Source: Alphaproteobacteria bacterium Ga0077535 (GTDB lineage Bacteria; Pseudomonadota; Alphaproteobacteria; Caulobacterales; Aquidulcibacteraceae). Taken from it: a stretch of DNA of 64,000 bases. This document shows, piece after piece, positions 16,517 to 35,567 of this stretch. The notes beneath the pieces are model-generated. The model was not told the DNA's origin. It saw nothing but the letters and a program-made list of their open reading frames with translations, and made no database searches. The translations under genes and the position numbers were made by a program. Each line of letters begins with the position of its first letter. Within the stretch, counting starts at the first letter, position 1. Location of the stretch: assembly GCA_001464425.1 (NCBI GenBank), contig LNEK01000007.1, forward strand, positions 1 to 64,000, given 5' to 3'.

Positions 16517-17146
16517 ATGAGTATGCTCGCGCTAAACGATGGACCTTCGCGTATTTTGACGCTGCCGCGGCGCAAGAGCGTATTCGTCGTGGTTAATTCA
16601 TCAGAACTCAGCGATGAAGACTTGCTTGTGCGCATTGGCGCTGGCGACCGCACAGCGTTTGAAGCGATTTTCAATCGGTACGCGCCGAGGGTGAAGTCTT
16701 ATCTGATGCGCTTAGGCGCGGGCGCCGCTGCCGCTGAGGATTTAGCGCAAGAAGCCATGATCTCGGTTTGGCGGCGGGCGGCATCCTATGACGCGGCCAA
16801 GGCTAAACCATCAACATGGGTCTTCGTGATTGCACGTAACGCCTGGATCGATCGGCTGCGTCGAGAAAAAGTTGCGCTGGCCTATCAGTTGGCAAATCCG
16901 CCGATCGAGGAAAGTCAGGAAGAGGCGCCTGATGCCGCGGTGGTGCGCAGAGGAGACGAGTCTCGTGTCGCGGACGCCCTGGCGGAGCTGTCCGAAGAGC
17001 AGCGGCAGGTCGTGCGATTATCATTCTTCGAAGATAACTCGCATTCCGAAATCGCCGCGCGGCTCTCTTTGCCGCTCGGCACAGTGAAGTCACGGCTGCG
17101 GCTTGCGCTGACCAAGCTGCGCGCGCATTGGGAGCAATATTCGTGA
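16517..17146 (+). CDS. rpoE: ECF sigma factor, RpoE/ChrR type
   Basis: 209 residues from ATG 16517. A GTG at 16589 would give 185 residues, closer to the usual length, because the first 24 residues are not conserved-looking and the upstream ATG lacks a well-placed ribosome site. Region 2 is FNRYAPRVKSYLMRLGAGAA with AEDLAQEAMISVWRRAASYD, including the W-R-R-A-A-S-Y-D block typical of sigma factors controlled by ChrR anti-sigmas. Region 4 is LSEEQRQVVRLSFFEDNSHS with LPLGTVKSRLRLALTKLR. It overlaps the ChrR-type gene by GTGA. In Rhodobacter this pair responds to singlet oxygen. The gene symbol denotes the family, not a verified orthologue. Confidence 0.9.
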   Translation: MSMLALNDGPSRILTLPRRKSVFVVVNSSELSDEDLLVRIGAGDRTAFEAIFNRYAPRVKSYLMRLGAGAAAAEDLAQEAMISVWRRAASYDAAKAKPSTWVFVIARNAWIDRLRREKVALAYQLANPPIEESQEEAPDAAVVRRGDESRVADALAELSEEQRQVVRLSFFEDNSHSEIAARLSLPLGTVKSRLRLALTKLRAHWEQYS

Positions 17147-17760
17147 GCCCCCGCCATCACCCATCGGCTGATATCCTTGCCTCGTATGCTACCGGAACCC
17201 TTGATCCGGGCTTTGGCCTCGTCGTCGGTGTACACGTTGGCTCCTGCGCGAAGTGTCGCGCTCAGGTAAGCGCGTTTGAGGCGACGTCTGGCGCGGCGCT
17301 TAATGATTTGCCGCAAGCGCAACTGGCGTCTGGCGCGCTGGCGCAGACGCTCGCGCGGCTTGATCAAATACGTTTTCGGCCTGTGGCGCCGGATACTCGC
17401 CCGTTGCTTGAGCGGTTGCCGCTGGAACCCAAACGTTGGGTCGCGCCTGGTGTTTGGGTAGCGGCTGTGAATACGCCCCGCTCGGCCGAAGATCGCGTGT
17501 ATGTTTTATCCGTCGGTAAAAGCGCGCTTACCGCACGCCACGAACACTCAGGCGCGGAATTCTGCGTCGTGTTGAAAGGTGCATATCGCGACGAACTCGG
17601 CGTGTTCGCAGCCGGCGATTTCGCCTTCGCTGATAGCGACGTGAATCACCAGCCTGTCGTGGAGGGCGATCAAGACTGTATCTGCCTCTTTGCCACCGAA
17701 GGCCGTTTGAAGCCCCACGGCCTGATCGGTCGCCTTGCGTTCGAGCTCGCCGATGTGTGA
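17143..17760 (+). CDS. chrR: ChrR-family zinc anti-sigma factor with cupin domain
   Basis: 205 residues from GTG 17143, overlapping the sigma stop by four bases, with GGAG nine bases upstream. The N-terminal anti-sigma domain has H5/H6 and H-V-G-S-C-A-K-C, i.e. the H-x3-C-x2-C zinc site. The C-terminal cupin (about 100-195) has RHEHSGAEFC, giving H-x-H-x3-E, and a later DSDVNHQP histidine, so all four predicted metal ligands of the ChrR cupin domain are present. In Rhodobacter sphaeroides ChrR holds RpoE inactive until singlet oxygen triggers its turnover. The same function is likely here and fits the neighbouring light- and redox-related genes. Confidence 0.92.
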   Translation: MSPRHHPSADILASYATGTLDPGFGLVVGVHVGSCAKCRAQVSAFEATSGAALNDLPQAQLASGALAQTLARLDQIRFRPVAPDTRPLLERLPLEPKRWVAPGVWVAAVNTPRSAEDRVYVLSVGKSALTARHEHSGAEFCVVLKGAYRDELGVFAAGDFAFADSDVNHQPVVEGDQDCICLFATEGRLKPHGLIGRLAFELADV

Positions 17761-18805: not shown

Positions 18806-19234
18806 ATGCTTGTTCGCTGTCTCTACGCAAGCCGACCCGCCAAGCCCCTAGATGGTGCGTTCCTCGACGACATTCTGGAACGATCGCGGAAGAACAATCC
18901 GAAGTTAGGCATCACTGGCTTGTTGTGCGTGTCAGACGACCTTTTCATCCAGGTGATCGAAGGTGGTCGCGACGAAGTGTGCGAGCTGTTCAACGCAATT
19001 GTCCGAGACGAGAGGCACCAGCAGGTCCGCTTGCTGAGTTACGCTGAGATAGGTGAGCGGCAATTCGGCAGCTGGACCATGGGCCAAGTGAATATCGCCA
19101 AGTTAAATCCCGCTCTGCTGCTGAAGTACTTTAAGCGCGCTGAGCTCGATCCATTCGATTGTTCGGGGCAGGCGACCATGGCTCTGCTCGGCGAGTTGGT
19201 CGCGACCGCCTCGATACTTAATCGCGGCGATTGA
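18806..19234 (+). CDS. BLUF-domain blue-light photoreceptor
   Basis: 142 residues. The FAD-binding BLUF domain covers residues 2-95 with all key residues: the photoactive tyrosine Y7 (RCLYASR), N31 (KNNPKLGITGLL), Q49 (LFIQVIEGG), and W90/M92 (GSWTMGQ). The remaining 48 residues form a short helical C-terminal cap without an enzymatic output domain, so signalling should be through protein-protein contact. It starts four bases after folE, with the ribosome site (CAGGACC) inside folE. The likely partner is a regulator such as the RegA-type protein encoded 139 bases downstream, but this is inference. Confidence 0.93.
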   Translation: MLVRCLYASRPAKPLDGAFLDDILERSRKNNPKLGITGLLCVSDDLFIQVIEGGRDEVCELFNAIVRDERHQQVRLLSYAEIGERQFGSWTMGQVNIAKLNPALLLKYFKRAELDPFDCSGQATMALLGELVATASILNRGD

Positions 19235-19966: not shown

Positions 19967-20608
19967 TTAATTTACAAGCACAGGCGCTTGGCGGAGGTAG
20001 GTGTCTTCAGTCAGCTGCCTGACTATGAAGTCTGCAACATTAGAGCGTGAGATGAGGCCATTTCTCCAGTCCTGTGGCCGGGTCAATATCTGATAGCGCC
20101 CGGTTCTGCGACCTTTGGTGAGGACGCCTGGCCGAACGATGGTCCAGTCAAGCCCGCTCTGGACGATCGATTTTTCCTGGATATCTTTGTCGGCATAGGC
20201 GCGGCCAAAAACGAGATCGAATCCCAGCCGTTGCAGCGGTGTTATCGCAGATCTGCTTTCGCCGGCGCCAAAACCTGTCACGCTGATTAAGCGCCGGATC
20301 CCGGCTTCTTTCATCAAAGGCAGAAGCGTTGCGGTGGCGCTGGAAAACAAGTCGATCGGACCGGTCAACATGCGCGCGTTTGCTGGAACGCCGAGTGCTT
20401 GGACGACGACGTCAGCGCCGCTGATGGCGCGCCGCACGTCATCGGATTTGCGCGCGTCGCCGACAACTTTGCGGAGTTTGTCGTGCTGAAGTGGAATGCT
20501 ATCGGCCGATCGCGAAAACGCGATAACCGAGTGATCGCGCTGCAGCGCTAATTTGGTTGTCGCAAGCCCAATCCCGCTGCTGGCGCCAATGATCAGCAGT
20601 GTTGTCAT
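19967..20608 (-). CDS. NAD(P)-binding SDR-like oxidoreductase
   Basis: 213 residues with an N-terminal dinucleotide-binding motif (LLIIGASSGIGLATTKLALQ). The rest resembles NAD(P)H-binding atypical SDR proteins of the NmrA/YwnB kind: VVGDARKSDDVRRAISGADV, a GVPANARMLTGPIDLFSSAT segment and IRRLISVTGFGAGESRSA. The classical Y-x3-K pair is not clear, as is common in atypical SDRs. Substrate unknown. It is in the redox block, facing the RegA-type gene tail-to-tail, and downstream of a long hairpin at 20634-20676. Confidence 0.82.
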   Translation of the reverse strand: MTTLLIIGASSGIGLATTKLALQRDHSVIAFSRSADSIPLQHDKLRKVVGDARKSDDVRRAISGADVVVQALGVPANARMLTGPIDLFSSATATLLPLMKEAGIRRLISVTGFGAGESRSAITPLQRLGFDLVFGRAYADKDIQEKSIVQSGLDWTIVRPGVLTKGRRTGRYQILTRPQDWRNGLISRSNVADFIVRQLTEDTYLRQAPVLVN

Positions 20609-20676: not shown

Positions 20677-20813
20677 TGATGGTTGCCAGCCCAAGGGCAA
20701 GGCCGCAACACTGGTGGTTACGTGGACTAGCGCACCGCGGATCAGCGCTTATGCCGTGGGTTCGTCTAGGCGAAGCGAAGAAGCCGTTTCAGCGTCGCTC
20801 ACTTACTTGCGCT

Positions 20814-21815
20814 TTAGCCGAACGCACTCCGCATTGCTGCGCCGAGCCTATCACCTGAGCGCCATGCCGCCTCGACACGGGCGCCGATGCGCCAATCGCC
20901 GCACAAACCAAGACGCAGGTCGTCATCCCAGGCGAATGGCGAAGACGCGGGTGTTTCTACGAAAGCGTAGCGCCAACGATGGGCCTGCAGCCATATCGGC
21001 TGAGGCGCTTCAGGAACCACAACTCGAAACGCGCTGAAGAGTGCGTCTGCCGCTTGCTGCGGTGTCAGATCGAGGTTCGCGCGTGACCATGCAGAGCTTG
21101 CATGAACGACCCATGCCTCGGATCCGGTTCGCCCCGGCTTGCCTGTTTCGCGCACCACCCACGCGAGAGCTTCGTCGGCGCCAAAGCGGCGTGCCTCGAA
21201 GGGCGTGTTGAAACGCCGGTCAAACGCGAAAAGTCCCGCCCAGCAGGGTGCTGTCCTCGCCGCTGTCGCTTCGACAGCTAATGCCGCCGCGACCGGCGCC
21301 AGTAGCGGCGCAGCCTGCTCGGCGGGTAGAGCCAGCACGAGGGCGTCAAATGGGCCCTCGCTCGCGGACTGATCTTGATCTGGGCTGTCCATATCAAGGC
21401 GCCACCCGTCGCCCTTATTGCGAACGCGGGTGACAAGCACCGATGTCTTAATGGCGAGCCCCCCGGCCATATGGCGCGCGAGTGCGCTCATCCCAGGCGT
21501 GCCTACCCAACGCTGCAGTTGCGTCCGGGCTGGATCAGTCATGCCATCATCGAACTCCCAGAGCGCTGCCGCGCCCGTCGGTGCGAAATCTTCCATCACT
21601 CGAGCAAAGGCCGAATCTCGCACTGAGATGTATTGCGCGCCGTGGTCAAACGACACTTCCCCGATAGGTGTCTTAGTGCGCCGCGTGGCGAGACGTCCGC
21701 CGGGCGATCTGCCTTTGTCGAATAGGCGTACATCAAGGTGAGCCTCGGTGAGGTGTCGTGCGCAGGCAAGACCAGCGACGCCTGCGCCCACTATGGCGAT
21801 AGAAGGCTGTTTCAT
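20814..21815 (-). CDS. FAD-dependent oxidoreductase (renalase/amine-oxidase-like)
   Basis: 333 residues. The N-terminus binds FAD through IAIVGAGVAGLACARHL, followed by RLFDKGRSPGGRLATRR, the second FAD contact seen in renalase-like and UDP-galactopyranose-mutase-like enzymes. VSFDHGAQYISVRD and the C-terminal LGLCGDWRIGARVEAAWRSG complete the FAD fold. Proteins of this kind are recurrent neighbours of photolyase and ChrR-type sigma genes, but their reaction is not established. It is divergent from the DCC gene. A TGATC-N18-TAAG element resembling the RpoE-ChrR promoter lies right upstream (21819-21845), although very close to the start codon. Confidence 0.88.
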   Translation of the reverse strand: MKQPSIAIVGAGVAGLACARHLTEAHLDVRLFDKGRSPGGRLATRRTKTPIGEVSFDHGAQYISVRDSAFARVMEDFAPTGAAALWEFDDGMTDPARTQLQRWVGTPGMSALARHMAGGLAIKTSVLVTRVRNKGDGWRLDMDSPDQDQSASEGPFDALVLALPAEQAAPLLAPVAAALAVEATAARTAPCWAGLFAFDRRFNTPFEARRFGADEALAWVVRETGKPGRTGSEAWVVHASSAWSRANLDLTPQQAADALFSAFRVVVPEAPQPIWLQAHRWRYAFVETPASSPFAWDDDLRLGLCGDWRIGARVEAAWRSGDRLGAAMRSAFG

Positions 21816-21818
21816 GCA

Positions 21819-21845
21819 CTTAAGTACGACGGAGACTCGCGATCA
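21819..21845 (-). promoter_or_regulatory. Candidate RpoE (ChrR-type) promoter
   Basis: Minus strand TGATC (21845-21841), 18-base spacer, TAAG (21822-21819). This matches the -35/-10 pattern I recall for Rhodobacter RpoE targets. The distance to the ATG at 21815 is only three bases, too short for ordinary initiation unless the true start or transcription start differs, so the call is tentative. Confidence 0.35.
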
Positions 21846-21870
21846 GCCTTCTGCGGACGCGGGGCATTTT

Positions 21871-22224
21871 ATGGAAAGGTCAGAGCTCACAGTCTGGTTC
21901 GATGGCGGCTGTCCGCTTTGCACGCGGGAGATCGCCTTGTTTCGGCGGCTCGACCGGGGCGCTTTCATCCATTTTGAGGACATCAGCCAGTCTGAATCAG
22001 TGTGTCCCATCGATCGTGCGCAAATGCTCGCCCGCTTCCATGCGCAGGAAAGAGGCAAGCCCATCGTTTCTGGGGGCGCGGCTTTCGCCGCGATGTGGCG
22101 TGCAATTCCGATCTTGCGGCCGTTTGGAGAGCTAGCCCGAATCCCGGCGTTGCTTTGGGCGCTTGAGCGCCTCTATCTCGGCTTCTTAAAGATCAGGCCG
22201 CGACTGCAGCGCCTGTTTCGCTAG
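21871..22224 (+). CDS. DCC-family thiol-disulfide oxidoreductase (DUF393)
   Basis: 117 residues from ATG 21871 with GGGG seven bases upstream; an in-frame ATG at 21814 would add a non-conserved leader. The start ELTVWFDGGCPLCTREIALF contains the D-x-x-C-P-x-C motif that names the DCC family and resembles a thioredoxin active site. The later GGAAFAAMWRAIPILRPFG and an amphipathic C-terminal helix agree with the family. Function is unproven, but a redox or disulfide role is expected. Divergent from the FAD oxidoreductase. Confidence 0.9.
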   Translation: MERSELTVWFDGGCPLCTREIALFRRLDRGAFIHFEDISQSESVCPIDRAQMLARFHAQERGKPIVSGGAAFAAMWRAIPILRPFGELARIPALLWALERLYLGFLKIRPRLQRLFR

Positions 22225-22322
22225 CTCGAGCCCCTGTGGCTCCTTGTGCGGGAGTGACGTAGCGAGAAAGTAGGACGATCGCTGTGCTTTGACTGGGCGG
22301 AGGAGCTTGTCTGAACTGCTTT

Positions 22323-22350
22323 TGATCCGATTGCGGCCCAAAGGCGTAAC
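22323..22350 (+). promoter_or_regulatory. Promoter-like element TGATCCGA-N14-CGTAAC (first copy)
   Basis: The 28-base layout TGATCCGA, 14 bases, CGTAAC occurs identically spaced at 25400-25427. TGATC and TAA(C/G) recall the RpoE-ChrR promoter, with one extra spacer base. It is 100 bases from the next start codon, so its assignment is uncertain. Confidence 0.3.
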
Positions 22351-22449
22351 CTCAAAGCTCGGGCAGGCTACAGTTCTTTGGACTGCTGCAAACGAGTTGT
22401 GATTGATGGATCACGCAGTCGAAGAAGAGGGGCGCAACATTATGCGCGT

Positions 22450-22752
22450 ATGCATATGAGACGAATGATCGTGTTCGCCTGGAATTTCATCTTCAACGCT
22501 GAAGTGAGTCCACTCCGCCATATTCCTGATATCTCGACGAGGCACTACGTTCTGCAGGCTCTTGGGCTTATGTGGGCGGTGGCTTCGTGCGTGGCGCTCG
22601 GAAGCTACACAGTGGTGGCGGCGAGCGTTTTTGGGCACGTTGTCTTGATCGGCGCTGCAGCGATTACTGTCGCCACTTACACCGCAGCGACAGTCACTCC
22701 CAGGGTATTTCAATCGAATTCAGGTCGTCGCCGTGATGGTGAGCATGAGTGA
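22450..22752 (+). CDS. Small membrane protein of unknown function (100 aa)
   Basis: 100 residues from ATG 22450 (ATG 22456 and 22465 are alternatives; none has a clear ribosome site). An N-terminal amphipathic piece (MIVFAWNFIFNAEVSPLRHI) is followed by two membrane helices at about residues 37-58 and 62-84 (LGLMWAVASCVALGSYTVVA; GHVVLIGAAAITVATYTAAT), and a basic tail. A TGATCCGA-N14-CGTAAC element lies about 100 bases upstream and recurs before the outer-membrane protein gene at 25475. I do not recognise the family. Confidence 0.6.
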   Translation: MHMRRMIVFAWNFIFNAEVSPLRHIPDISTRHYVLQALGLMWAVASCVALGSYTVVAASVFGHVVLIGAAAITVATYTAATVTPRVFQSNSGRRRDGEHE

Positions 22753-22757
22753 GTTTC

Positions 22758-22925
22758 TCACTCGTATTCTCGCTGGCATGCAGATCGCTTGATCATCATC
22801 TTGGCCCGATAGCCATTGGGGGCGACAATGAGCGTTGTGGCAATGTTCGCCCACTTGTCGGACCGGTTTTGATCCGACAAACGGGCGCGGAGCCATCCGC
22901 GCCCATCCTGCTTTCCGTTCGCCAT
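22758..22925 (-). CDS. Possible small basic protein (55 aa)
   Basis: ATG 22925 to TGA 22760-22758 reads as a 55-residue hydrophilic protein starting MANGKQDGRGWLRARL and containing KWANIATTLIVAPNGY. The frame continues upstream in a protein-like style (YWKAKRLSRKITLK) without a start codon, which could mean a truncated older gene. A GGAAG lies 12 bases before the ATG. It is tail-to-tail with the membrane protein at 22450. No family was recognised. Confidence 0.3.
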   Translation of the reverse strand: MANGKQDGRGWLRARLSDQNRSDKWANIATTLIVAPNGYRAKMMIKRSACQREYE

Positions 22926-22991
22926 CTTGAGCGTGATCTTCCGGCTTAGCCGCTTGGCCTTCCAATAGTCCGCGCGAACGTGTTGCTGCAG

Positions 22992-23441
22992 TCAGCAGCG
23001 AAGCGCGGCCACGATCAAGGCGGTGGCGCCAGCACATGAAAGCGGCCATCGCAATTGCGTAAACCATGCTGGCGCCAGACCGGAGCGTGCTGCGATGGAG
23101 TCAGCCCCCAAGATCACCAGCAAGCCTGCTGCAGTAAGCACATGTCCTAACGGAGACGGGGCCAACAATGCGGCCCAGCCGAGTAATTGCGGCACGACGC
23201 CTAAGCCTAGATGGAGCGCACGCGATCGGGGCGTCAGTGACGGTGACGCAATCGCCAACCCCCAATGAATGCCGCCAAGGAAAGATAGGATTGTGGCGCC
23301 ATAAGCTAGCAAGCCGTAAGACGCGGAAGCGCGCATGGGTTCTGGCGCGAGGCACACGAGTGCTGCGAGCGCAATAAATGGGATGAGACCGAGATAACCG
23401 AGGCTTGAAGCTGCTAACGGCGGTCGTTCACGTGCGGGCAT
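22992..23441 (-). CDS. DUF3429 membrane protein
   Basis: 149 residues with five predicted membrane helices. The conserved DUF3429 pieces are SSLGYLGLIPFIALAALVCL, SYGLLAYGATILSFLGGIHW and WFTQLRWPLSCAGATAL. The G-G-I-H-W-G motif in the second helix is the family marker. Its role is unknown; it is often found with photolyase, Cfa and ChrR-type genes, which fits this neighbourhood. It is upstream of and parallel to the COQ7/AOX pair, 76 bases from coq7 on the minus strand. Confidence 0.88.
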   Translation of the reverse strand: MPARERPPLAASSLGYLGLIPFIALAALVCLAPEPMRASASYGLLAYGATILSFLGGIHWGLAIASPSLTPRSRALHLGLGVVPQLLGWAALLAPSPLGHVLTAAGLLVILGADSIAARSGLAPAWFTQLRWPLSCAGATALIVAALRC

Positions 23442-23517
23442 CGCTACTTCAACTCCAAATGATCTTGCAGCGCGCCAGCGTTCACGCGAGCCGGTGCTTG
23501 ATGGCGGTCGAGGGTTC

Positions 23518-24108
23518 CTAGACGTGACGCGCGACTTTTACTGCGACGGCCGAGCCTGCTCGCACCAGTCTTGTCCAAACAGCTAGCGCAAACCCCGGTG
23601 CGTTTTTCTGTCGGTGGGCTGCGTCGTCCCGATGCGCCACCTCGTCATTGCGCCAGCCATCAAGCAGCGACAGCAGAGCAGCGTCGCCAGCCTCTGCCCG
23701 AAGCCGGTCTATTTGCTCCTGATAGTGTTGATCCACGAACGTCTCTACCGCCTCGATGGTGGCGAACACCGCATCTCGGCCAAGTAGTCCAGGGATTACG
23801 CCGGTCACCCATCCTAGGATACGCCACAACCACACCAACCGCGATCGCATTGCGCGTGGCAGGATTGCGCTTACTTCGCGAAGGTGACGGCTTTCTGTCT
23901 CGATGTGGGCGCGCGCGAACGCCCGGGTCTCATCATCACGCGTAGTGGCGAGCACACCTCTATAAATCCATACCGCACCGGTCTCGCCCGCGTGGTCGGT
24001 GCGTAGCGAAGCCCAAACCCAATCAGGCCAGTTGGAAGCCAAGCCAAGGCGTGATGGCCCCGCTAGAGCCTGCGATCCAACGTCCCAACTGGGCTCGGCG
24101 GTGGTCAT
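23518..24108 (-). CDS. coq7: COQ7-type demethoxyubiquinone hydroxylase family protein
   Basis: 196 residues from ATG 24108, which overlaps the stop of the alternative oxidase gene by ATGA. It is a ferritin-like di-iron protein: E42 in [17 protein letters not shown]72-x2-H75 in [11 protein letters not shown], the central E in [13 protein letters not shown], and E-x2-H in [11 protein letters not shown]. That set is the full ligand set of COQ7/CLK1. The enzyme would hydroxylate 5-demethoxyubiquinol in ubiquinone synthesis. A hydrophobic helix pair in the middle ([17 protein letters not shown]) would embed it in the membrane surface. The tight coupling to a ubiquinol oxidase gene is unusual; it may be a specialised paralogue instead of the housekeeping ubiquinone enzyme. 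Confidence 0.88.
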
Positions 24109-24797
24109 GCCTGCGCTCCACCCAAATGGCTGCCCGTTGAGCCGTTGCAATCGCCGCGGCGTGCCCGGCGCGGCGCCGACAATTGGTCGGCAAACTGGTG
24201 GTTGACGTCGCGATGCCCAACTTCGTCGGTGCGTACGGCCAAGATAACATCACGAAGGCGCGCATCCGCAGCTAGGTCCCAGTAGCGGATGGCAATCGCA
24301 GGTGCAGGAGGGTTGTCTACGCGGCCGCAATCAATTTCTGCGAGGTAAGCGGTGTAACTCACGACCGCTTCTTCTTCGAAGTAGCCGACCAATCGATGTG
24401 CAGTTCGCGGCGCAAAAAGATAGAGCACGAAGAAGGCATTGAAGAATAAGCCTTGCGCCAGCAGCACGAGCGCTCGTTCGAATGCGTTCGGTTGGGCGAC
24501 AGCGATGAATGTCATCAGGTGCATGCGCTCGTTCTCAGCCTCGTCGAGAAGCGTTTTGATCCAACCCCTGTCGTCTTGCATGCGGCGCAGACTTTTTAGG
24601 TGGTTCAGCATCCCGCCGACCATGCCGGGCACAGCGGCTACGGTTTCCAAGATCACAGCGCGATGACCGTATCGCTTCCTGAAGAAAGCGTCGGCGAAGA
24701 AGCGCAAGACACGCGTAAGCATTAGCGCAATGTGGTCGGACCAATCGGCAGGGCTGCGATGCGACCTAAGTTCGACTTCATCAGCACGGGGGGACAC
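24105..24797 (-). CDS. aox: Alternative oxidase (cyanide-insensitive ubiquinol oxidase)
   Basis: 230 residues from GTG 24797 with AAGGAG upstream at ideal spacing. All di-iron ligands of AOX are visible: E51 ([10 protein letters not shown]), E90 and H93 (AENERMHLM), the E of [10 protein letters not shown] (141-143), and E192/H195 ([11 protein letters not shown]). The two conserved amphipathic helices that hold the protein in the inner leaflet are present (about 55-70 and 110-130). AOX oxidises ubiquinol and reduces oxygen to water without proton pumping. It is patchy in bacteria and best known in some alphaproteobacteria. The gene overlaps coq7 by four bases, so production of the oxidase and quinone hydroxylase is coupled. 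Confidence 0.93.
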
Positions 24798-25077
24798 GAC
24801 TCGCTCCTTGGTGTTGCGGATGGCGCAGCGACAGGTCAGCCGCAGCGTGCCCCTGCGCGCCAGAGGGGCCTATCAGGCTATGAGATAGGCGCTGGCGACA
24901 CCGCGGCTCGAAGGCGCATTGCCGCACCAGGGTGCTCGCCCGAACTGTGTTCGACGGCCGTGCCTTCTGCAGCCGAGTCGGCGCGCCCTGAGATGGAAGA
25001 ACGTGCTGGCAGTCAGAACCGCTTCCGCTTCAGCAGAATGCTGCGCGACCGCGCTCAGCGCTGCTTGCAACACCCAT
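24798..25077. other. Intergenic region upstream of aox
   Basis: No gene supported. Minus-strand frames here are alanine/serine/arginine-rich and without a recognisable product. The region should hold the aox-coq7 promoter; no clear TGATC-N18-TAAG or other consensus was found by eye. Confidence 0.4.
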
Positions 25078-25158
25078 TCAAGCCCCCCTGAAAGTCGCCA
25101 GATCCCAAATCTCCGCCCGTTGCGCGGGTGAATAATAGATGCGGCGGCGTTGCTTCAT
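25078..25158 (-). pseudogene. IS30-family transposase, N-terminal fragment
   Basis: From ATG 25158 on the minus strand the translation begins MKQRRRIYYSPAQRAEIWD, the characteristic N-terminus of IS30 transposases (basic residues, I-Y-Y-S, A-x-x-x-x-I-W-D before the HTH). It then loses homology at about 25100 and stops at 25080-25078. Only about the first 20 codons and the left terminal repeat remain, so it is a truncated relic. Confidence 0.65.
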
Positions 25159-25192
25159 GGGCTCTCACTCCAGTCTTCTCAAAGAGACTAAA

Positions 25193-25214
25193 GTGTTGCG
25201 TCGACCGGTTCAGG
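25193..25214 (-). mobile_element. IS30-like left-end inverted repeat
   Basis: GTGTTGCGTCGACCGGTTCA then GG on the plus strand, 35 bases upstream of the transposase fragment start. It matches 69-90 with two differences. Position and orientation relative to the transposase ATG fit a left terminal repeat. Confidence 0.55.
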
Positions 25215-25251
25215 TCCCAGCGAACTTAGGCCGGTCGCCAGCTGCCGAAGC

Positions 25252-25320
25252 GGGCGTCACCAATTCAGCGACCAAGCCATTCGTGATTTTGTACGCTACG
25301 GCGCACGTTGGCCCTAAGCT
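25252..25320 (+). repeat. Diverged copy of the dispersed repeat
   Basis: GGGCGTCACCAATTCAGCGA, CCAAGCCATTCGTGATTTTG and GGCGCACGTTGGCCC. It aligns with 5865-5935 through most of its length and with the 3' half of copy A. Confidence 0.5.
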
Positions 25321-25399
25321 GCCTGTTGTCATCGAGCCCCGGTCCAGTCGGTGTGTTTCCGGAAACCAAACTCGCTTGCCCCGCGCGACGCGCTGGTCG

Positions 25400-25427
25400 T
25401 GATCCGACAAGTCACATCCACCGTAAC
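25400..25427 (+). promoter_or_regulatory. Promoter-like element TGATCCGA-N14-CGTAAC (second copy)
   Basis: Same two blocks and spacing as at 22323-22350. Its last base is 47 bases before the ATG of the outer-membrane protein gene, a normal distance for a promoter with a short leader. Possible target of the RpoE-type sigma encoded at 16517. Confidence 0.4.
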
Positions 25428-25474: not shown

Positions 25475-26257
25475 ATGTCAAAATTACCTTCAGCCATTCA
25501 GCTAGCCGTGGTCGCGGTTGTGCTCATGGCCACACCTGCAGCGGCGCAGGACTATTATGGCTCGGTTAGCGTCGGCGGCGTCTTCTTGAATGACTCCGAC
25601 AACAGCGGATCGTTCAGTAGCGACTTTCTGACCGGCACAGGCACGACAATCCCGAACAATACGCCGCTTCCAGCGGGAACTGGCGTCGGCTGGACCACCG
25701 AATTCGACACCGGTTACACCGTGAGCGCGGCGCTAGGCAGACGCTTCAACAACGGCCTGCGTGGCGAAATAGAATTTGCGTATCAGAGCAACGACGTCGA
25801 CACGCACCGCAATGTGCAGGCGGCAGGCATTCCGCTCGATAATGAGGATGTAGGCGTCTTGATCAGCGGCGCCCCGCTACAGGGCGCAACCGTTGGCGCT
25901 GTTGTAGCCGACGGTCGAGGCTCGGTCGACACAACGTTCTTGATGGCCAACGTATACTATGACTTTGCCGAGTATGGCGCGTTTACGCCGTATGTTGGCG
26001 GCGGCGTTGGCGTAGGCTTTGTGAATGTCGATTACTCGCCCTCAGGCGTTGGCATCGTGGATGATGACGATACCGTGTTCGCGTACCAGCTGATCGCCGG
26101 CGGTTCCTATGCGGTCAATGACAGCACATCTGTGTTCGCTCAATACCGTTATCGCGCCACCGAGGACGTGGAGACGTCCGTTGATCTGTTCCCGGCTTCG
26201 CTTGACGTTGAGAACAGGGCGTCGGCGTTTGAAGTCGGTGTGCGGTTTAACTTCTGA
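25475..26257 (+). CDS. Outer-membrane beta-barrel protein
   Basis: 260 residues from ATG 25475. A signal peptide (MSKLPSAIQLAVVAVVLMAT, then PAAAQD) is followed by an eight-stranded-barrel pattern with alternating aromatic and polar strands: YYGSVSVGGVFL, GYTVSAALGRRF, LRGEIEFAYQSND, LMANVYYDFAEYGAFTPYVG and so on. It ends FEVGVRFNF with a C-terminal phenylalanine. This is the OmpA-like/OmpW-type porin or adhesin barrel (P44/Msp2 or opacity-like family). A purine-rich ribosome site precedes it, a strong terminator follows, so it is monocistronic. Probably a surface structural protein; ligand unknown. Confidence 0.88.
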   Translation: MSKLPSAIQLAVVAVVLMATPAAAQDYYGSVSVGGVFLNDSDNSGSFSSDFLTGTGTTIPNNTPLPAGTGVGWTTEFDTGYTVSAALGRRFNNGLRGEIEFAYQSNDVDTHRNVQAAGIPLDNEDVGVLISGAPLQGATVGAVVADGRGSVDTTFLMANVYYDFAEYGAFTPYVGGGVGVGFVNVDYSPSGVGIVDDDDTVFAYQLIAGGSYAVNDSTSVFAQYRYRATEDVETSVDLFPASLDVENRASAFEVGVRFNF

Positions 26258-29005: not shown

Positions 29006-32000
29006 CTAACGGGAGCTGGCGCCCACATAGCGGATCAGTTCATCGCGAAGGCTCGGACCTACGAGGAAGCGGCCGCTCGGCGCGCTATCAAGCTGGATGC
29101 CTCCGACGCGTTCCACGATCACGTCATCGTCGTAAATGAGAATGACGTGATCTCCGCGCGCTTCGTGGACTACACGCGGCACATTCCCACGGCGTCCGAG
29201 TACGGCCACCAGACCACCGCCGCTGCTCTCCAACAGCTGGACTGTGCCGTCCGACATTGGGGCAAGCACCATGCGTCCGCCCGCGACGAACCGCGGTCCC
29301 GGCGTTCGGCTTAGCGGGGAGGGGATTCGGATTTCGGCGCCGTCGTTGGGCGTAGCCAGTGTCGTGCCGTCGAGGCGGGAAAGAAGGACGCTTCCGTCGC
29401 TCGGATTCACTGCGCCGCCGATGACGACATTGTCAATCGCGCCAGCTTGGCGCGCTATGGTGTTTGCGGTGCTTGTCGCGATGCCGCCCTGCTGTCCCAC
29501 TGCGACGACTTCATTGTCGAACGTGAAGCCGATCACCTCTACAGGCTGTCCATCCGCTAGCGAAAAACGTTCGTTTGTGTTGCAAGCATCAAGCGTCTCG
29601 TTCGCGGGGCGGCCGAGCTGCCTTAACTGCCAGACGCAGATTTCCCCGCTTGTACTGCCTGTCGCGATAGCCGTTCCATCAGGTGAAAGGTTTGCGACGT
29701 GGAGGTTGGTTTGACGCGCGACCCCGGTCTCCGTGAGACTACCGCCTTCGACCGACCACACGCGAATGTAACCATCACCGGTTGCCATCACGATGCGATT
29801 TTCGGAGGCAAAGCGAAGGAAGCGGATCTGGCTAGCGCCGATCGAGGCTGCGGCAATCTCGGATTGGTCTGCCCCCCAGATGCGCAAATATTGATCCTCG
29901 CCATAGGAAGCGACAAGGCTACCATCGTCGCTAACCGCCAAGTGAGAGACTTCGCCATTTCGTGGCGCATCTCTGGGCAAGTCATAGCGCGGCGTGAGCG
30001 CATGATCTTGGCGCGCCATCACCAATGCCGCACTTCCGACCAACACATTCCCGTTGTCAGCAAATACCCTGGCGCCTGGCGTTGCCGACGCCCAGGGCGT
30101 GGTCCCAATGATGCTTCGCGTCCCCAAATCCCAGCTTTGTACGAACGGAAGCTCGTTGTCTCCACAATCGATCACCACGGCATCAGGCGTACGTCGTTCC
30201 ATGCGAAGCTCAGTCAGAGTCCCGGCGCAGACGCCACCGATGTCGCTAAAGCTTCGGCCTCGCGTGAGTTCAAACACTCGTAAACGCTGATCGTCGAGGA
30301 AAGCCCCGTAGGTCAAATTGCTGTCGAATAGGAAACCCGGCGATAGGCGTGCTTCCGACAGGTTATCACGCACTACGCTAGACGTTCTGCCGTCCACGCT
30401 GAAACGCGTAATCGCGCCGCGGATCCCTACAGTGACGAAATGATTTGAGTCCGATCCGAACTGCCCATGGAGCTGTGGCTCGGTCAACTCGGGCTCATAA
30501 ATAGCTGAGAGGCCGCCGTTAGCATCCGCTTGAAATACACGCACCCGCGTAGGCTGGGTCACTGCAATGCGTTGGTCGCTAGGAGACACAAACAGCGATG
30601 ACGCTGGCCCGCCAGGGAGCTCGCTTCGAATGTCGCGGAATAAGTCGAGTACGATTGGGGTCCTGGTGCTTCCTGCCGTCAGAGCCAATCCCCATCGGCT
30701 CCCTGAGGAAAAGGGATCGGTGAGAAGAGGCTCGCCAATTTGGAATCGTCCGTTGTTGAGCGCGCGCAGACCGCGTGTTGCGCCGAATACAGAGTCGTTT
30801 TGGCCATCGACTGCGAGCAAGAAGTACTCGCCGTTGGAAGATGTCCAAAGGCCTCTGAAATCTCCGTCGAAGGTCGATTGAGAGAGTAGGGCGCCATAAC
30901 GACTGTACGCAGCCAAGCGAACTTCCGGCGCCGTCGAGCCAGAAGTGCGAGACGCGACAAGTATGCCATTGTCTGTGCCCTCTGCGATCCCCAACACATC
31001 GCCGCCGGGATCGAAGTCGACACCAACACCGTCCGATGCCCGAGCGATCAGGACTCTATTATCGGGTCTAACTGAGTAAACGAGCGTCCCGTTCCGGCTG
31101 AACTCGCTGATCCGCCATCCGCCTGCATGTCCGGGCAGTCTGCGAACGACGTCTCCGCTCTCGGTGTTGATCACGCGTATCTCGCTGGATCGCGAAACGC
31201 CGCGACCGCGAACAGCCAACGCCACGAATTGCCCATTCCCACTTATGGCCGTTGCAGTAATTTGTTCGTTGCTAAGGCCGGCTAGAATGCGGGAGCTCGA
31301 CTCAGGCCTGTATACGCCGATGACGCCGCGTTCTTGCTCTCCAATGACGACGTTCCATCTGGACCCGCTTGGACCCGCAGCAGTTGTTGTGAGGGTGCGA
31401 AGATTGGCGATATTGGCGGGTGTGACGATAGGACTGAGTGTGTCGTTCGCAAGCGTTAGCGCCTGTAGGCTTCGCTCGCCGGCGATGAGTAGCTGAGCAT
31501 TGTCTACAGAGAAGGAGAGAGCTGTTACACGGCCTGGTGGCGTAATGTAGCGCGCGCGCGGCCCACGCAAATCCCAAATCTGGATGCCCTCAGGATCGAC
31601 GACCGCTGCCATCGAACCATCGGGGCTGATATCGGCCGGCCCATGCCCGCCACGCAATCGCAACTCACGCAAGACAGTTGGTTTTGGTTCGATCGCTATG
31701 CGCATGGCGATTGCACCAGTATTGGGGCCGGAGACGAAGAGTGTTTCGCTCTGCACGCCGGCGCTGGCGTCGACGTCCGGTGCTACCGCGATGCGCCAGG
31801 ATGGCGGGTACTCGTTCTCGCCCGCTTGAACAACGGCGCCGAGCCGTCTGAATCTCAGCGTTTCGACTGGGGCGGTAATCCGTGGGTTTTCGGCTATGGC
31901 GGTGGTGCTGTAGACATCGACAGAACCGTCGTCTCGAAGCACGTAAAGGCGAGCGCTATCGGGCGAAAATGTCGCCGCGCGCGCGGATGGACTGCTGAGG

Positions 32001-34054
32001 ACAGCCAACGGTGTTCTGCTAGCAATAGACCATAGGCGGGCAACGCCCGCGGCATCGGTGGACGCGAGCCAATGATTGTCGCCAATTGGAGCGTCAGAGA
32101 CCGCTATGTCTACGACTTCGACGAGGTTTGGGTGCGCCCAGGCGCCCATCCGTTCCGAAGTGCCGAGGTTCCACAAGCGAGCAAAACCGTCTGCGGAGGC
32201 CGTGGCCATGACGCGTTCGCGCTCGGCGACGTCTGCCGCGTTTATTGCGCCGCGGTGCCCTGGCAAAACCCATTGGGAACGAAGAGCGTCCAGAGTGAGA
32301 TAAAGTGCTGCTTCCGCGCGAGGTTCATACGGCCAAAGGAAATGCTCGCCGCCGAGCGAACGCGGCAGCACTTCTTGAATGATCTCCAGCGCTTCAAATG
32401 GCAAACCATCGTGGACCAATTGCGTGGCCCGATCAGCCGCCGCGATGCTGCGTGAGATCTTGGATTGACGGTCTAGGCTGTAGAGCAAAAATCCGAGGCC
32501 CAGCACCAGCGCCGCCGCGGTGGCTCCTATGTACAGACCAAACTGTCTAAACATCGCGCGCCAGCGCTGCTTCTTAAGTATCTCGGCCTCTATAGCCTTG
32601 CGCTCATTTTCACGCCGTTCGTTGCGCCTAGCGATGCTCTGTCGGTAAAAGTCAAAAGCTTCCTCGTGGCTGGATCCATAACGGGCGGCCCAGGCCGCCG
32701 TCGGTTCTGTTTCTTCCCACCACGGCTCGAACACGTGGAGCTGGCGGTCGCTCAACAAATCCCCGCTATTGTCTGCTGCGGTGCGAGCATGGTTCTCAAG
32801 TTGACGATAAATCTCGGCGGAGCGCTGTTCCTCGCGGACCCATTCTTGAAGGCGTTCCCATTGCCGGATTAGACTTTCATGGCTGATGTCTATGATGGTG
32901 GCGCCGTTGAGGGGGGTGGCGGGCGGAGGCATAAGAAAGTTTCGGCCTTCGGCGCGAAACTCGTCGACTACACGCCTAACGGCCGCGATATCGGCGCCCG
33001 TAGCTGTCACGATGTCCGCAACGGAGGCGGGGCGTCGCACATCCCGAGCACGATGGGTGGATTCCGGCTGAACGAGAAACTTGAATATACGCTCGGCCAG
33101 TTTTTTCTCAGTCGGGTTGAGGGCGTTGTAGATTCCATTCAACGCCGCATTGAGCGCGCCGGACAGTCGACCCACGTTATCGTAGTGAGCCATCGTAAGT
33201 TTGACGCCTTGGCGGCCTTGCGCTTGGCGCCACATGCGCGCGAGTACATTTTGAAGCAGGGGCAGCAAGTCAGGGTTTGTCCATGCAGCCGAGCCCGCAA
33301 CGCCATCGACCAAAGCAAGGTCGTTGAGCATGCCGGTGACGAGCTTGTCGTCGACCTCTCCTCCAAAGACCCGCGCGGGTTCACGAATAGCCTCGCCGCA
33401 TTGCAGTCGCGTCATTCGTGGCGTTAGAAAGTGTGAATCGTTGATGGCTTCAATCAATCCAGGCACAGTTGCGCAGTCGCCGAGGAAGTCGATGCGCATG
33501 GTAATGACGACATAGACTTTGCGCGCCTGCGATTCCGTCGCTCGTAGCAACGTATCGACGAATTCCTCGACTTCCTCTCGCTGTGACGCTTCGGAACGCT
33601 CATCGTTAGTGTCCGTGTCTTCAAAGCGAAAAATCTCCTCAAACTGGTCGACGACCAAGAAGAGCGTCTCGTCCTCAGCGCCGATAAAGTCGAGCCAACC
33701 CACGAGGGCGTTTTCTTGGGTTGAAAGTCGCGCTTCCAGCAGCTCGGGGCTGTCCTGACCGACGCCGTAGCTTTGGGTAAGCGCCTCGGCCATTGCTCTT
33801 AGTGGGCGGTTGCCAGGCCTGAACATCACTGTCCGCCAAGGGCCTTCTCCGCTTAAGAAGCCGCTGTTCAGCTCTTCGAGCAGTCCTGCCTTGATGAGTG
33901 AAGACTTGCCGCAGCCTGAAGGTCCGGTGACCGCAAGAAATCTGTGGCGACGAAGCTTCTCGATCATGTCGCTGAGAGCTTGTTCGCGTCCGAAGAACAG
34001 ATGTGACTCGGATTGTTCGAATGCTCGCAGGCCGGGATAAGGGCTATCTGCCAT
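29006..34054 (-). CDS. nSTAND NTPase with WD40-like repeats (putative immune sensor)
   Basis: 1682 residues from ATG 34054, overlapping the TIR gene by 11 bases. The N-terminus SPYPGLRAFEQSESHLFFGR is the start signature of the nSTAND1 (novel STAND NTPase 1) domain. Walker A GPSGCGKSSLIKAGL lies at about 44-58 and Walker B LFLVVDQFEEIFRF at about 131-144. WHD-like helices continue to about 440. A membrane helix sits at about 503-526 (YIGATAAALVLGLGFLLYSL). From about 590 to the end are many WD40-like blades (VLPGHRGAINAADVAE, MATASADGFARLWNL, VASYGEDQYLRIWGAD), about 1100 residues, enough for two propellers. STAND proteins are ligand-triggered oligomerising switches; the propellers are probable sensors. 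With the adjacent TIR effector this is a likely anti-phage or signalling module. Confidence 0.9.
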   Translation of the reverse strand: MADSPYPGLRAFEQSESHLFFGREQALSDMIEKLRRHRFLAVTGPSGCGKSSLIKAGLLEELNSGFLSGEGPWRTVMFRPGNRPLRAMAEALTQSYGVGQDSPELLEARLSTQENALVGWLDFIGAEDETLFLVVDQFEEIFRFEDTDTNDERSEASQREEVEEFVDTLLRATESQARKVYVVITMRIDFLGDCATVPGLIEAINDSHFLTPRMTRLQCGEAIREPARVFGGEVDDKLVTGMLNDLALVDGVAGSAAWTNPDLLPLLQNVLARMWRQAQGRQGVKLTMAHYDNVGRLSGALNAALNGIYNALNPTEKKLAERIFKFLVQPESTHRARDVRRPASVADIVTATGADIAAVRRVVDEFRAEGRNFLMPPPATPLNGATIIDISHESLIRQWERLQEWVREEQRSAEIYRQLENHARTAADNSGDLLSDRQLHVFEPWWEETEPTAAWAARYGSSHEEAFDFYRQSIARRNERRENERKAIEAEILKKQRWRAMFRQFGLYIGATAAALVLGLGFLLYSLDRQSKISRSIAAADRATQLVHDGLPFEALEIIQEVLPRSLGGEHFLWPYEPRAEAALYLTLDALRSQWVLPGHRGAINAADVAERERVMATASADGFARLWNLGTSERMGAWAHPNLVEVVDIAVSDAPIGDNHWLASTDAAGVARLWSIASRTPLAVLSSPSARAATFSPDSARLYVLRDDGSVDVYSTTAIAENPRITAPVETLRFRRLGAVVQAGENEYPPSWRIAVAPDVDASAGVQSETLFVSGPNTGAIAMRIAIEPKPTVLRELRLRGGHGPADISPDGSMAAVVDPEGIQIWDLRGPRARYITPPGRVTALSFSVDNAQLLIAGERSLQALTLANDTLSPIVTPANIANLRTLTTTAAGPSGSRWNVVIGEQERGVIGVYRPESSSRILAGLSNEQITATAISGNGQFVALAVRGRGVSRSSEIRVINTESGDVVRRLPGHAGGWRISEFSRNGTLVYSVRPDNRVLIARASDGVGVDFDPGGDVLGIAEGTDNGILVASRTSGSTAPEVRLAAYSRYGALLSQSTFDGDFRGLWTSSNGEYFLLAVDGQNDSVFGATRGLRALNNGRFQIGEPLLTDPFSSGSRWGLALTAGSTRTPIVLDLFRDIRSELPGGPASSLFVSPSDQRIAVTQPTRVRVFQADANGGLSAIYEPELTEPQLHGQFGSDSNHFVTVGIRGAITRFSVDGRTSSVVRDNLSEARLSPGFLFDSNLTYGAFLDDQRLRVFELTRGRSFSDIGGVCAGTLTELRMERRTPDAVVIDCGDNELPFVQSWDLGTRSIIGTTPWASATPGARVFADNGNVLVGSAALVMARQDHALTPRYDLPRDAPRNGEVSHLAVSDDGSLVASYGEDQYLRIWGADQSEIAAASIGASQIRFLRFASENRIVMATGDGYIRVWSVEGGSLTETGVARQTNLHVANLSPDGTAIATGSTSGEICVWQLRQLGRPANETLDACNTNERFSLADGQPVEVIGFTFDNEVVAVGQQGGIATSTANTIARQAGAIDNVVIGGAVNPSDGSVLLSRLDGTTLATPNDGAEIRIPSPLSRTPGPRFVAGGRMVLAPMSDGTVQLLESSGGGLVAVLGRRGNVPRVVHEARGDHVILIYDDDVIVERVGGIQLDSAPSGRFLVGPSLRDELIRYVGASSR

Positions 34055-35567
34055 CGCACGCCTCACTAACAAGCTTTGCTAGCTGTTGTACGGTCTGCTT
34101 GCGATCCATTGCAGCGTCGTGAAACTGGATAGATCTGCCCATAAAGCCGATGTCGCTGGCGGTGAGGTCGTGAGGCTTGATGACACGAGCCGGAGCGGAG
34201 CCCGTAGCGTTTCGACGGGCGCGCACATAGAATCGTACCTGGCGAGGCAGCCAACCGGCAGATGCTTGCGCACCGATGATGAAGGATCGATCAGCTTCAG
34301 CATAATGCTGTTCGGTCAGGGAGTCGTATTCACGTTTATCGAAGCCATCTGGTTTCGGCATCAAGAACGCGTCAAAAGCATCAGCGCGACCGGAGGCCTC
34401 GATCGCCTCCTGCGCGAGCTCGCGATCAGCGCCGATGGCATTGAAAAAGAGCAGTGTGTTGTTGCCTTTGATTGGGTTATCGACCCTTTTGCTAGCTTCC
34501 GCGATGCTTTGAATTTTGCTGTTGACCAGGTCGCGAAACTCACGAGTTGTCACCCGTTCTACGCCGCCGCGCTTGAGGATTTCGCGTTCATGCGGAGCAA
34601 AATCTTCATCCGCCGTGTCCTTTGACGCCCAGATGAGAGTCGTTAGTCCGCGTCGTTGGGCTTCATCGAGTTGCGCTAAAGTAAACGCAGCCGTGGGAGC
34701 GTCGCCTTCATCGGCGCCCGCGCCCAAGAGTTGTACAAACAATTTAGACTGGCCAATGAGCTCAGAGGATCGACGCTGCGCGATCTCATGATTTCCGAGG
34801 TCGTATAATAGCCCGTTCGGTTCGCTGGGGAGCACGGAGACATCTCGTCGGTGGGACAGATGTACGCGCAGTCTGTCCCGCTCGAAACGGGCGTTCTCGC
34901 TGGCGTCACCGAGCATCACCTTGATGGTGTCCTGCGACAACGGAGGCTCGGGCGGTGGCGGCGTAGTTCGAAGTCGCGGGGGCTGCCCCGAGATCTTTGA
35001 ATGCTGGTTGCTTTGGAGGCGGTTAGCGAGTTGTTCTGAAAGGCGGACGACCAAGGTGAAGAAATCGCGCGGATTGCAGCTTTCCATTGAGGCGCCGGTG
35101 AGTGCGCGTCGGCGGCCTGCGACCCGAACAAGAGAGGGGATTTTGGCCTGCCGGCCGATGAAATCGATGAGCTGTGCCGACACCGTCGTCGGCAATTCGG
35201 TCAGATAGCCGTTGAAGCCCCCGTGAGGAATATTGTCGAGAATGAAGATGCGGTTCGCAGCTTCCGCCTCACCCCACTGCTCGATAAACACTTGCAGTTC
35301 GCGCATGCACCATCTGGAATGAAGGTAGCGGCGCGAGAGCAAGAGCACAAACAATTGCGAGGACCGAACGGCAGTGACGAGACGGTCATCGAGGTCGCCT
35401 GCTTCCAGACTGTCGACGTCGTAGTAAACCTCGGCCGGCCGGTGCGACGCGTAGGCCTGAGCCAGTTCATTGCGCAGCGTCTCGACGAGGCGGGTGACAA
35501 CGCCGCGCTCATCGTCGGCATCTCCATTTGAGAGCCGGGCATAGCTGAAAAAAATATCGTAGCCCAC
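34044..35567 (-). CDS. TIR-domain protein with TIR-like accessory domains
   Basis: 507 residues from GTG 35567. The N-terminal TIR domain (1-150) opens MGYDIFFSYARLSNGDADDE and has VYYDVDSLEAGDLDDRLVTA. The helix SRRYLHSRWCMRELQVF has glutamate E90 in the place of the catalytic glutamate of NADase TIRs (S-x-x-W-C-x-x-E-L). A proline-rich linker (about 200-212) follows. Residues 212-345 (IKVMLGDASENARFERDRLR, LFVQLLGAGAD) resemble TIR-like/DUF4062 domains found beside STAND ATPases. The last 130 residues, with FFNAIGADRELAQEAIEASG and SFIIGAQASAGW, may be a third related fold. It overlaps the nSTAND gene by 11 bases, so the two are co-translated. Expected role: effector that depletes NAD+ or makes a cyclic ADP-ribose signal. 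Confidence 0.88.
   Translation of the reverse strand: MGYDIFFSYARLSNGDADDERGVVTRLVETLRNELAQAYASHRPAEVYYDVDSLEAGDLDDRLVTAVRSSQLFVLLLSRRYLHSRWCMRELQVFIEQWGEAEAANRIFILDNIPHGGFNGYLTELPTTVSAQLIDFIGRQAKIPSLVRVAGRRRALTGASMESCNPRDFFTLVVRLSEQLANRLQSNQHSKISGQPPRLRTTPPPPEPPLSQDTIKVMLGDASENARFERDRLRVHLSHRRDVSVLPSEPNGLLYDLGNHEIAQRRSSELIGQSKLFVQLLGAGADEGDAPTAAFTLAQLDEAQRRGLTTLIWASKDTADEDFAPHEREILKRGGVERVTTREFRDLVNSKIQSIAEASKRVDNPIKGNNTLLFFNAIGADRELAQEAIEASGRADAFDAFLMPKPDGFDKREYDSLTEQHYAEADRSFIIGAQASAGWLPRQVRFYVRARRNATGSAPARVIKPHDLTASDIGFMGRSIQFHDAAMDRKQTVQQLAKLVSEACDGR

Follow-up and report, generated by a model that had tools for sequence, protein, structure and literature searches.

An alternative oxidase gene that overlaps the gene of a COQ7-type hydroxylase raises the question of what the hydroxylase does in this place. 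We studied it in a window of 64,000 nucleotides, the first part of contig LNEK01000007.1 of Alphaproteobacteria bacterium Ga0077535 (genome G000 in our samples). An earlier note on this DNA had read the arrangement as a dedicated quinol pathway of the alternative oxidase (AOX), in which the COQ7-type enzyme completes or alters the quinone oxidised by AOX, and had suggested a link to photo-oxidative stress. The COQ7-family gene of the window, and the clade to which it belongs, are named coq7b in the following.

The aox gene (24105..24797, minus strand) encodes 230 aa and heads an aox-coq7b(-DUF3429) unit. Its start codon is GTG, with AAGGAG 6 nt upstream. The product matched PF01786 with 287.7 bits (cut-off 22.7) at near full length (profile positions 12-216 of 216) and also matches the sequences of solved trypanosome AOX. 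The di-iron ligands E51, E90xxH93, E141/E142 (FEEEA) and E192xxH195 are invariant among six aligned bacterial AOX, the window's included; the roles of these positions are assumed to be those of trypanosome AOX. Upstream of the gene lies a conserved element (24881..24914, minus strand) of the sequence CCTTCGAGCC-N13-CGCCTATCTCA. Its general form, CCNTCGAGCC-N13-CGCYTATCTCA, is common to three AOX genes of G000 and its congener G058, and a scan of 112 loci, own locus and one duplicate included, found no match in the remaining loci. This element is a possible promoter or operator of aox. The second AOX gene of G058 (L147 5404-6093, G058:C1), which is 80% identical to that of the window and has an internal TGA, carries the element as well and is without coq7b in its 11-kb stretch.

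The downstream gene, coq7b (23518..24108, minus strand), encodes a divergent COQ7-clade di-iron hydroxylase of 196 aa. It overlaps aox by 4 bp, ATGA, as the earlier note had read it. The listed open reading frame has 210 aa and begins at an earlier TTG; the ATG within the overlap is the likelier start. A gene for a DUF3429 protein (22992..23441, minus strand; PF11911, 113 bits) follows 76 nt downstream. COQ7b matched PF03232 with 132.5-132.6 bits (cut-off 23.5). When four coq7b proteins are aligned with the canonical COQ7 copy of the genome, the ligands E42, E72xxH75, E122 and E156xxH159 do not vary, and the HY pair of canonical COQ7 is also kept. Thus, with six ligands retained in both AOX and COQ7b, the earlier claim of two di-iron proteins with complete ligand sets was borne out. 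The NCBIfam equivalog model for DMQ monooxygenase, NF033656 (cut-off 180), gave 38.5 bits for COQ7b and 76.2 bits for the canonical copy. Since the canonical copy is also under the cut-off, the model does not separate the two, and by its sequence score COQ7b is not filed under this equivalog. An AlphaFold2 model of COQ7b, computed from eight coq7b-side sequences of which two are viral, had a mean pLDDT of 88.2. Its best structural match was human COQ7 (7sss_E; Z 23.2, 2.1 A over 167 residues), and the next non-COQ7 structures were ferritin-like with Z 16.4 or less. COQ7b is therefore predicted to have the COQ7 fold.

The earlier note had proposed to look for a second, housekeeping coq7, and such a gene was found. 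A canonical COQ7 is encoded on another contig of the same genome (G000:C20:298903-299403, 210.4 bits), between neighbours which, judged by eye, are presumably dsbB-like and acetyltransferase-like. The two copies share about 35-38% identity. Hence coq7b is an extra copy, and we rejected it as a candidate for the housekeeping gene. The same situation was found in 13 of the 14 coq7b genomes, while G648 has the coq7b kind only. In a tree of 53 COQ7 proteins, some of them on long branches and some of unusual composition, 14 COQ7b and 39 canonical proteins were separated by a branch with 100/100 support, with 2.46 changes per column on the coq7b side. The canonical COQ7 of the small AT-rich f13 genomes (L185-L188) also sits on a very long branch, of 2.17 changes per column. 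The distribution of coq7b is patchy. It occurs in 4 of 249 sampled genomes of the order (100, 79, 55 and 41% identity), where the other listed COQ7 matches score lower and those placed in the tree grouped with the canonical copies. Within the genus, 2 of 30 genomes carry it (E 1e-26). Wider samples gave 10 positive genomes out of 385 for the class and 3 out of 398 for the phylum (E at most 1e-25); both of these samples include G000 and G284. A search of plasmids gave no match at E 1e-5.

Beyond the DUF3429 gene, the neighbourhood of coq7b contains orf124, encoding a small protein with no Pfam match (22378..22752, plus strand), a DCC1-like thiol-disulfide oxidoreductase (DUF393; 21748..22224, plus strand; PF04134, 77.5 bits), a FAD-dependent amine oxidase-like protein which recurs near coq7b (20814..21815, minus strand; PF01593, 79.7 bits) and an NmrA/NAD(P)-binding protein (19967..20608, minus strand; PF13460, 145 bits). 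An outer-membrane beta-barrel gene is located at 25475-26257. About 4 to 7 kb from coq7b, genes for a GTP cyclohydrolase I, a BLUF protein and a response regulator are found together with rpoE-chrR (16517-17760, plus strand), in agreement with the closeness to RpoE-ChrR that had been pointed out before. The ECF sigma factor gene rpoE (16517..17146, plus strand) matched PF04542/PF04545, and the anti-sigma factor gene chrR (17128..17760, plus strand) matched PF12973 as well as TIGR02451 with 156.1 bits (cut-off 124.5). The BLUF blue-light sensor of the window (18806-19234, plus strand) is matched, with 39% similarity, by a stretch close to the coq7b cluster in G058 (L143 5905-6174, minus strand). 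Elsewhere in the window, an ORF of 1688 aa (29006-34072, minus strand) combines an nSTAND1 NTPase domain (320 bits) with WD40 repeats.

Several of these genes recur among the 14 coq7b loci that were read, two of which are from congeners. DCC was found at 5 loci, namely in the window, in L145 and, fused to COQ7b in single ORFs matching both PF04134 and PF03232, in L163 (5999-7195), L164 (6089-7015) and L165 (3208-4113). The flavin amine oxidase was present at 4 loci (window, L145, L162, L165), NmrA at 3 (window, L143, L164), DUF3429 at 3 (window, L143, L165) and GTP cyclohydrolase I at 2 (window, L163); L165 has a glutathione peroxidase in addition. In G359 (L166) ubiG, which scored 262.7 bits with TIGR01983 (cut-off 102.95), ends 13 nt before coq7b, and genes of the photolyase family flank both sides. 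UbiG methylates the product of ubiquinone C6 hydroxylation. Counting as partners those genes seen in two or more coq7b loci, we found recurring partners at 7 of 14 coq7b loci versus 1 of 13 canonical coq7 loci of the coq7b genomes (Fisher one-sided p 0.021). This contrast is flattered toward coq7b in three ways: the queries derive from coq7b loci, the stretches around coq7b exceeded those of the controls somewhat in length, and two genomes are congeners. The control of 13 leaves out three canonical loci of other genomes (L148-L150), with which it became 2/16 (p 0.032); among them L150, from a genome without coq7b, has a GTP cyclohydrolase I match. At 6 of the 14 coq7b loci (L144, L171 and those of four small AT-rich f13 genomes) no recurring partner was found.

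The published part of the ECF11 promoter, as given for P. syringae and Shewanella in the accessible portions of PMC5507510 and, similarly, PMC4336711, is TGATCC-N16-CGTA. The window contains three sites of the form TGATCC-N16-CGTAAC, in which the CGTA core is from the literature and CGTAAC is an extension from our analysis. They are located before NmrA (20717..20744, minus strand), orf124 (22323..22350, plus strand) and the outer-membrane beta-barrel gene (25400..25427, plus strand), and these three, all at 20717-25427, are the only ones in the 3.96-Mb assembly. The extension is post hoc, since it was seen by eye among TGATC occurrences and the published consensus was matched afterwards, and its p value of 3.6e-8 has to be read accordingly. 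An initial scan for promoters, with an assumed -10 element, had yielded 8 sites versus 10.3 in shuffled sequences. The 10-base form TGATCC-N16-CGTA occurs 13 times in the assembly and the reversed pattern not at all. Two of the 13 sites lie back to back on contig C25 between a second rpoE-chrR of G000 and a divergently oriented flavin amine oxidase-DUF1365 pair (L242 4338-7808; G000:C25:4000-18000), an arrangement that links the motif with RpoE in this genome. DUF1365 is itself linked to the RpoE-ChrR core regulon.

Evidence from the other loci is mixed. The exact site before NmrA is kept in G058 (L143:7046), and ubiG-coq7b of G359 is preceded by a TGATCC-N17-CGTA site that starts 55 nt ahead of ubiG. 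Around coq7b at the other 13 loci, RpoE-type sites with spacers of 15-17 showed no clear excess (4 perfect sites in 166.8 kb versus 2 in 162.2 kb around canonical coq7). ChrR exceeded its cut-off in 6 of 10 coq7b genomes versus 129 of 375 others in the class sample (p 0.09), a weak association. Upstream of aox-coq7b in the window, no RpoE-type site with at most two mismatches was found, the best having three; consequently, we did not file the operon as a member of the ECF11 regulon. The proposed photo-oxidative link thus finds support in the neighbourhood of coq7b, with rpoE-chrR, three exact sites and ECF11-type neighbours, and lacks it in front of aox.

We suggest that COQ7b is a stress-linked ubiquinone ring hydroxylase which would serve the upkeep of the ubiquinone pool under photo-oxidative stress and which was set behind aox once in this genus. 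We regard this proposal as evenly balanced between right and wrong. The complete set of ligands, the ubiG neighbour found once and the repeated neighbours from oxidant and light defence make the production or renewal of ubiquinone at times of depletion the simplest role. The reaction would be a ring hydroxylation of a ubiquinone precursor, with C6, the position used by canonical COQ7, as the most likely site; R. rubrum Coq7 acted solely as a C6 hydroxylase in E. coli according to the accessible part of PMC5069965. COQ7b may form part of the gene set surrounding the RpoE-ChrR singlet-oxygen response, would be induced by light and would keep up or repair a ubiquinone pool damaged by light-generated oxidants. 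DCC-type and flavin partners could supply it with electrons or redox protection. Placed directly behind aox, COQ7b is probably made together with AOX in this genus, presumably by co-transcription; AOX would then drain excess ubiquinol to oxygen and COQ7b would replenish ubiquinone. The additional copy represents a variant within a known enzyme family, and a role in photo-oxidative stress is plausible for it.

The main rival to this proposal is that COQ7b acts on another stress substrate, such as a lipid, a peroxide or an already formed quinone, with the di-iron site working as an oxidase or peroxidase. We lean against this, while considering it a serious possibility. The long branch between coq7b and the canonical proteins would fit a changed substrate, as would the fusion to a thiol-disulfide DCC domain and the presence of glutathione peroxidase, flavin oxidase or NmrA nearby, with a ubiquinone gene beside coq7b at one locus only. 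Moreover, a second ubiquinone hydroxylase would be redundant in the 13 genomes that also have canonical COQ7. However, COQ7b keeps all six ligands and the HY pair of the canonical enzyme, and in G359 the gene directly upstream is ubiG.

A dedicated AOX quinol pathway, as envisaged in the earlier note, appears improbable to us. It would agree with the canonical COQ7 elsewhere in the genome, with the fact that the AOX and COQ7 families both handle quinones and with the preservation of the gene pair in two species. In G058 the three genes stand in the same order, DUF3429-coq7b-aox, and aox and coq7b again overlap by 4 bp (GTGA). Between G000 and G058, dN/dS was 0.14 for AOX and 0.135 for COQ7b, values of purifying selection, with the dS of COQ7b, 1.35, near saturation. 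The retained overlap and the low dN/dS argue that the pairing is more than chance. The distribution of the two genes, however, speaks against a pathway that depends on both. AOX is present in only 2 of the 14 coq7b genomes (G000, G058) and absent from 12. Within the order, 70 of the 249 sampled genomes have AOX, which is thus less uncommon there than had been supposed, while coq7b is confined to 4 of the 249. COQ7 was found near AOX at 1 of 109 AOX loci from other genomes, that of the congener G058; this number refers to 29 loci from the order, each 2.6-3.6 kb long, and 80 loci with up to 8 kb flank, 23 of the latter being shorter than 14 kb, and about 42 further AOX places in the order lie outside the count. 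The count is therefore limited, but two of the four coq7b genomes of the order are without AOX. Conserved aox-coq7 adjacency, for which a search of other genomes had been recommended, was accordingly rejected. With adjacency in one congener, AOX missing from most coq7b genomes and no RpoE-type site before aox, COQ7b is not chiefly a quinol maker for AOX. The simplest reading of the sequence data is that the pairing arose in a single event and would be maintained by selection in a small lineage.

As a further alternative, coq7b could be a duplicated or transferred gene of no importance, landed behind aox by chance and without a specific role. Its patchy occurrence in the genus and class would suit this, but the dN/dS of COQ7b, the maintained ligands and overlap, and the recurrent neighbours and fusions across several families make it improbable.

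Relatives of COQ7b were also found on nine large, phage-like IMG/VR contigs of up to 99.5 kb, two of which are near-copies. Phage families matched on these coq7b-bearing contigs are those of ribonucleotide reductase, exonuclease, endonuclease VII and chaperonin. Each of the 10 viral loci tested (L217-L226, some representing the same contig twice) has DoxX close to coq7b, and some of them also have cytochrome c, endonuclease III and a small, weakly orf124-like protein there; the viral coq7b regions include L217 2798-6673, L218 2114-6134 and L225 6901-9649. The resemblance of orf124 to the small protein near viral coq7b amounted to 25% over 103 aa (tblastn, E 6e-7 in a small set). A tree with five viral copies placed them on the coq7b side (100/100) but in two places; the bootstrap of this tree had not settled. 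Phage records gave one distant match, a COQ7-family gene 27.8% identical to coq7b in the Wolbachia phage WO record MN180249.1 (22128-22616), and among the PHROGs neither coq7b nor orf124 matched a family at E 0.001. Extending our proposal, COQ7b may represent an unrecognised COQ7-type class for photo-oxidative stress, providing ubiquinone renewal or remodelling induced by light or singlet oxygen. It would sometimes be fused to DCC, be wired to AOX for drain and refill in one genus, and travel on large phages, alongside cytochrome c, DoxX and endonuclease III, as a means of sustaining host respiration during infection. We put this extension forward as speculative and would expect it to fail rather than to stand.

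In the open-access literature, judged by title and start of abstract and with subscription journals outside the search, no paper was recognised that links AOX and COQ7 in a bacterial operon. Nor was a paper recognised there that connects COQ7 with singlet oxygen and sigma factors, treats COQ7 as a phage auxiliary gene or links COQ7 to DUF393; DUF393 and DUF3429 were absent among the matches listed. If our proposal is true, there are bacteria that maintain a second ubiquinone hydroxylase against light stress, and the quinone pool would be a defended target of singlet oxygen instead of a mere bystander. A PF03232 match would then be no proof of a housekeeping COQ7, a point of importance wherever ubiquinone pathways are reconstructed from the number of hydroxylases in a genome. 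Direct handles on the function of COQ7b are offered by the natural fusions to DCC, by the adjacent ubiG and by the copies on phage-like contigs.

Compared with known systems, the AOX of the window is an ordinary bacterial alternative oxidase, with the PF01786 match and all ligands; nothing unusual was seen in the protein itself, and only the gene placed behind it is out of the ordinary. With the RpoE-ChrR (ECF11) regulon the locus shares the rpoE-chrR pair, the TGATCC-N16-CGTA sites and the flavin amine oxidase, to which the photolyase-family genes of G359 can be added, and the flavin amine oxidase-DUF1365 arrangement on C25 resembles the core regulon as described in the accessible part of PMC5507510. 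In contrast, the core list given in that part (amine oxidase, phrB, cfa and others) is without COQ7, and coq7b would be an accessory member of the regulon. The closest likeness is to COQ7 itself, represented by human COQ7 (7SSP/7SSS) and Rhodospirillum rubrum Coq7, with which COQ7b has the predicted fold, the six ligands, the HY pair and PF03232 in common. It differs from canonical COQ7 in forming a separate deep clade, in coexisting with the canonical gene, often among stress genes, in being sometimes fused to DCC and in its low score on the equivalog model.
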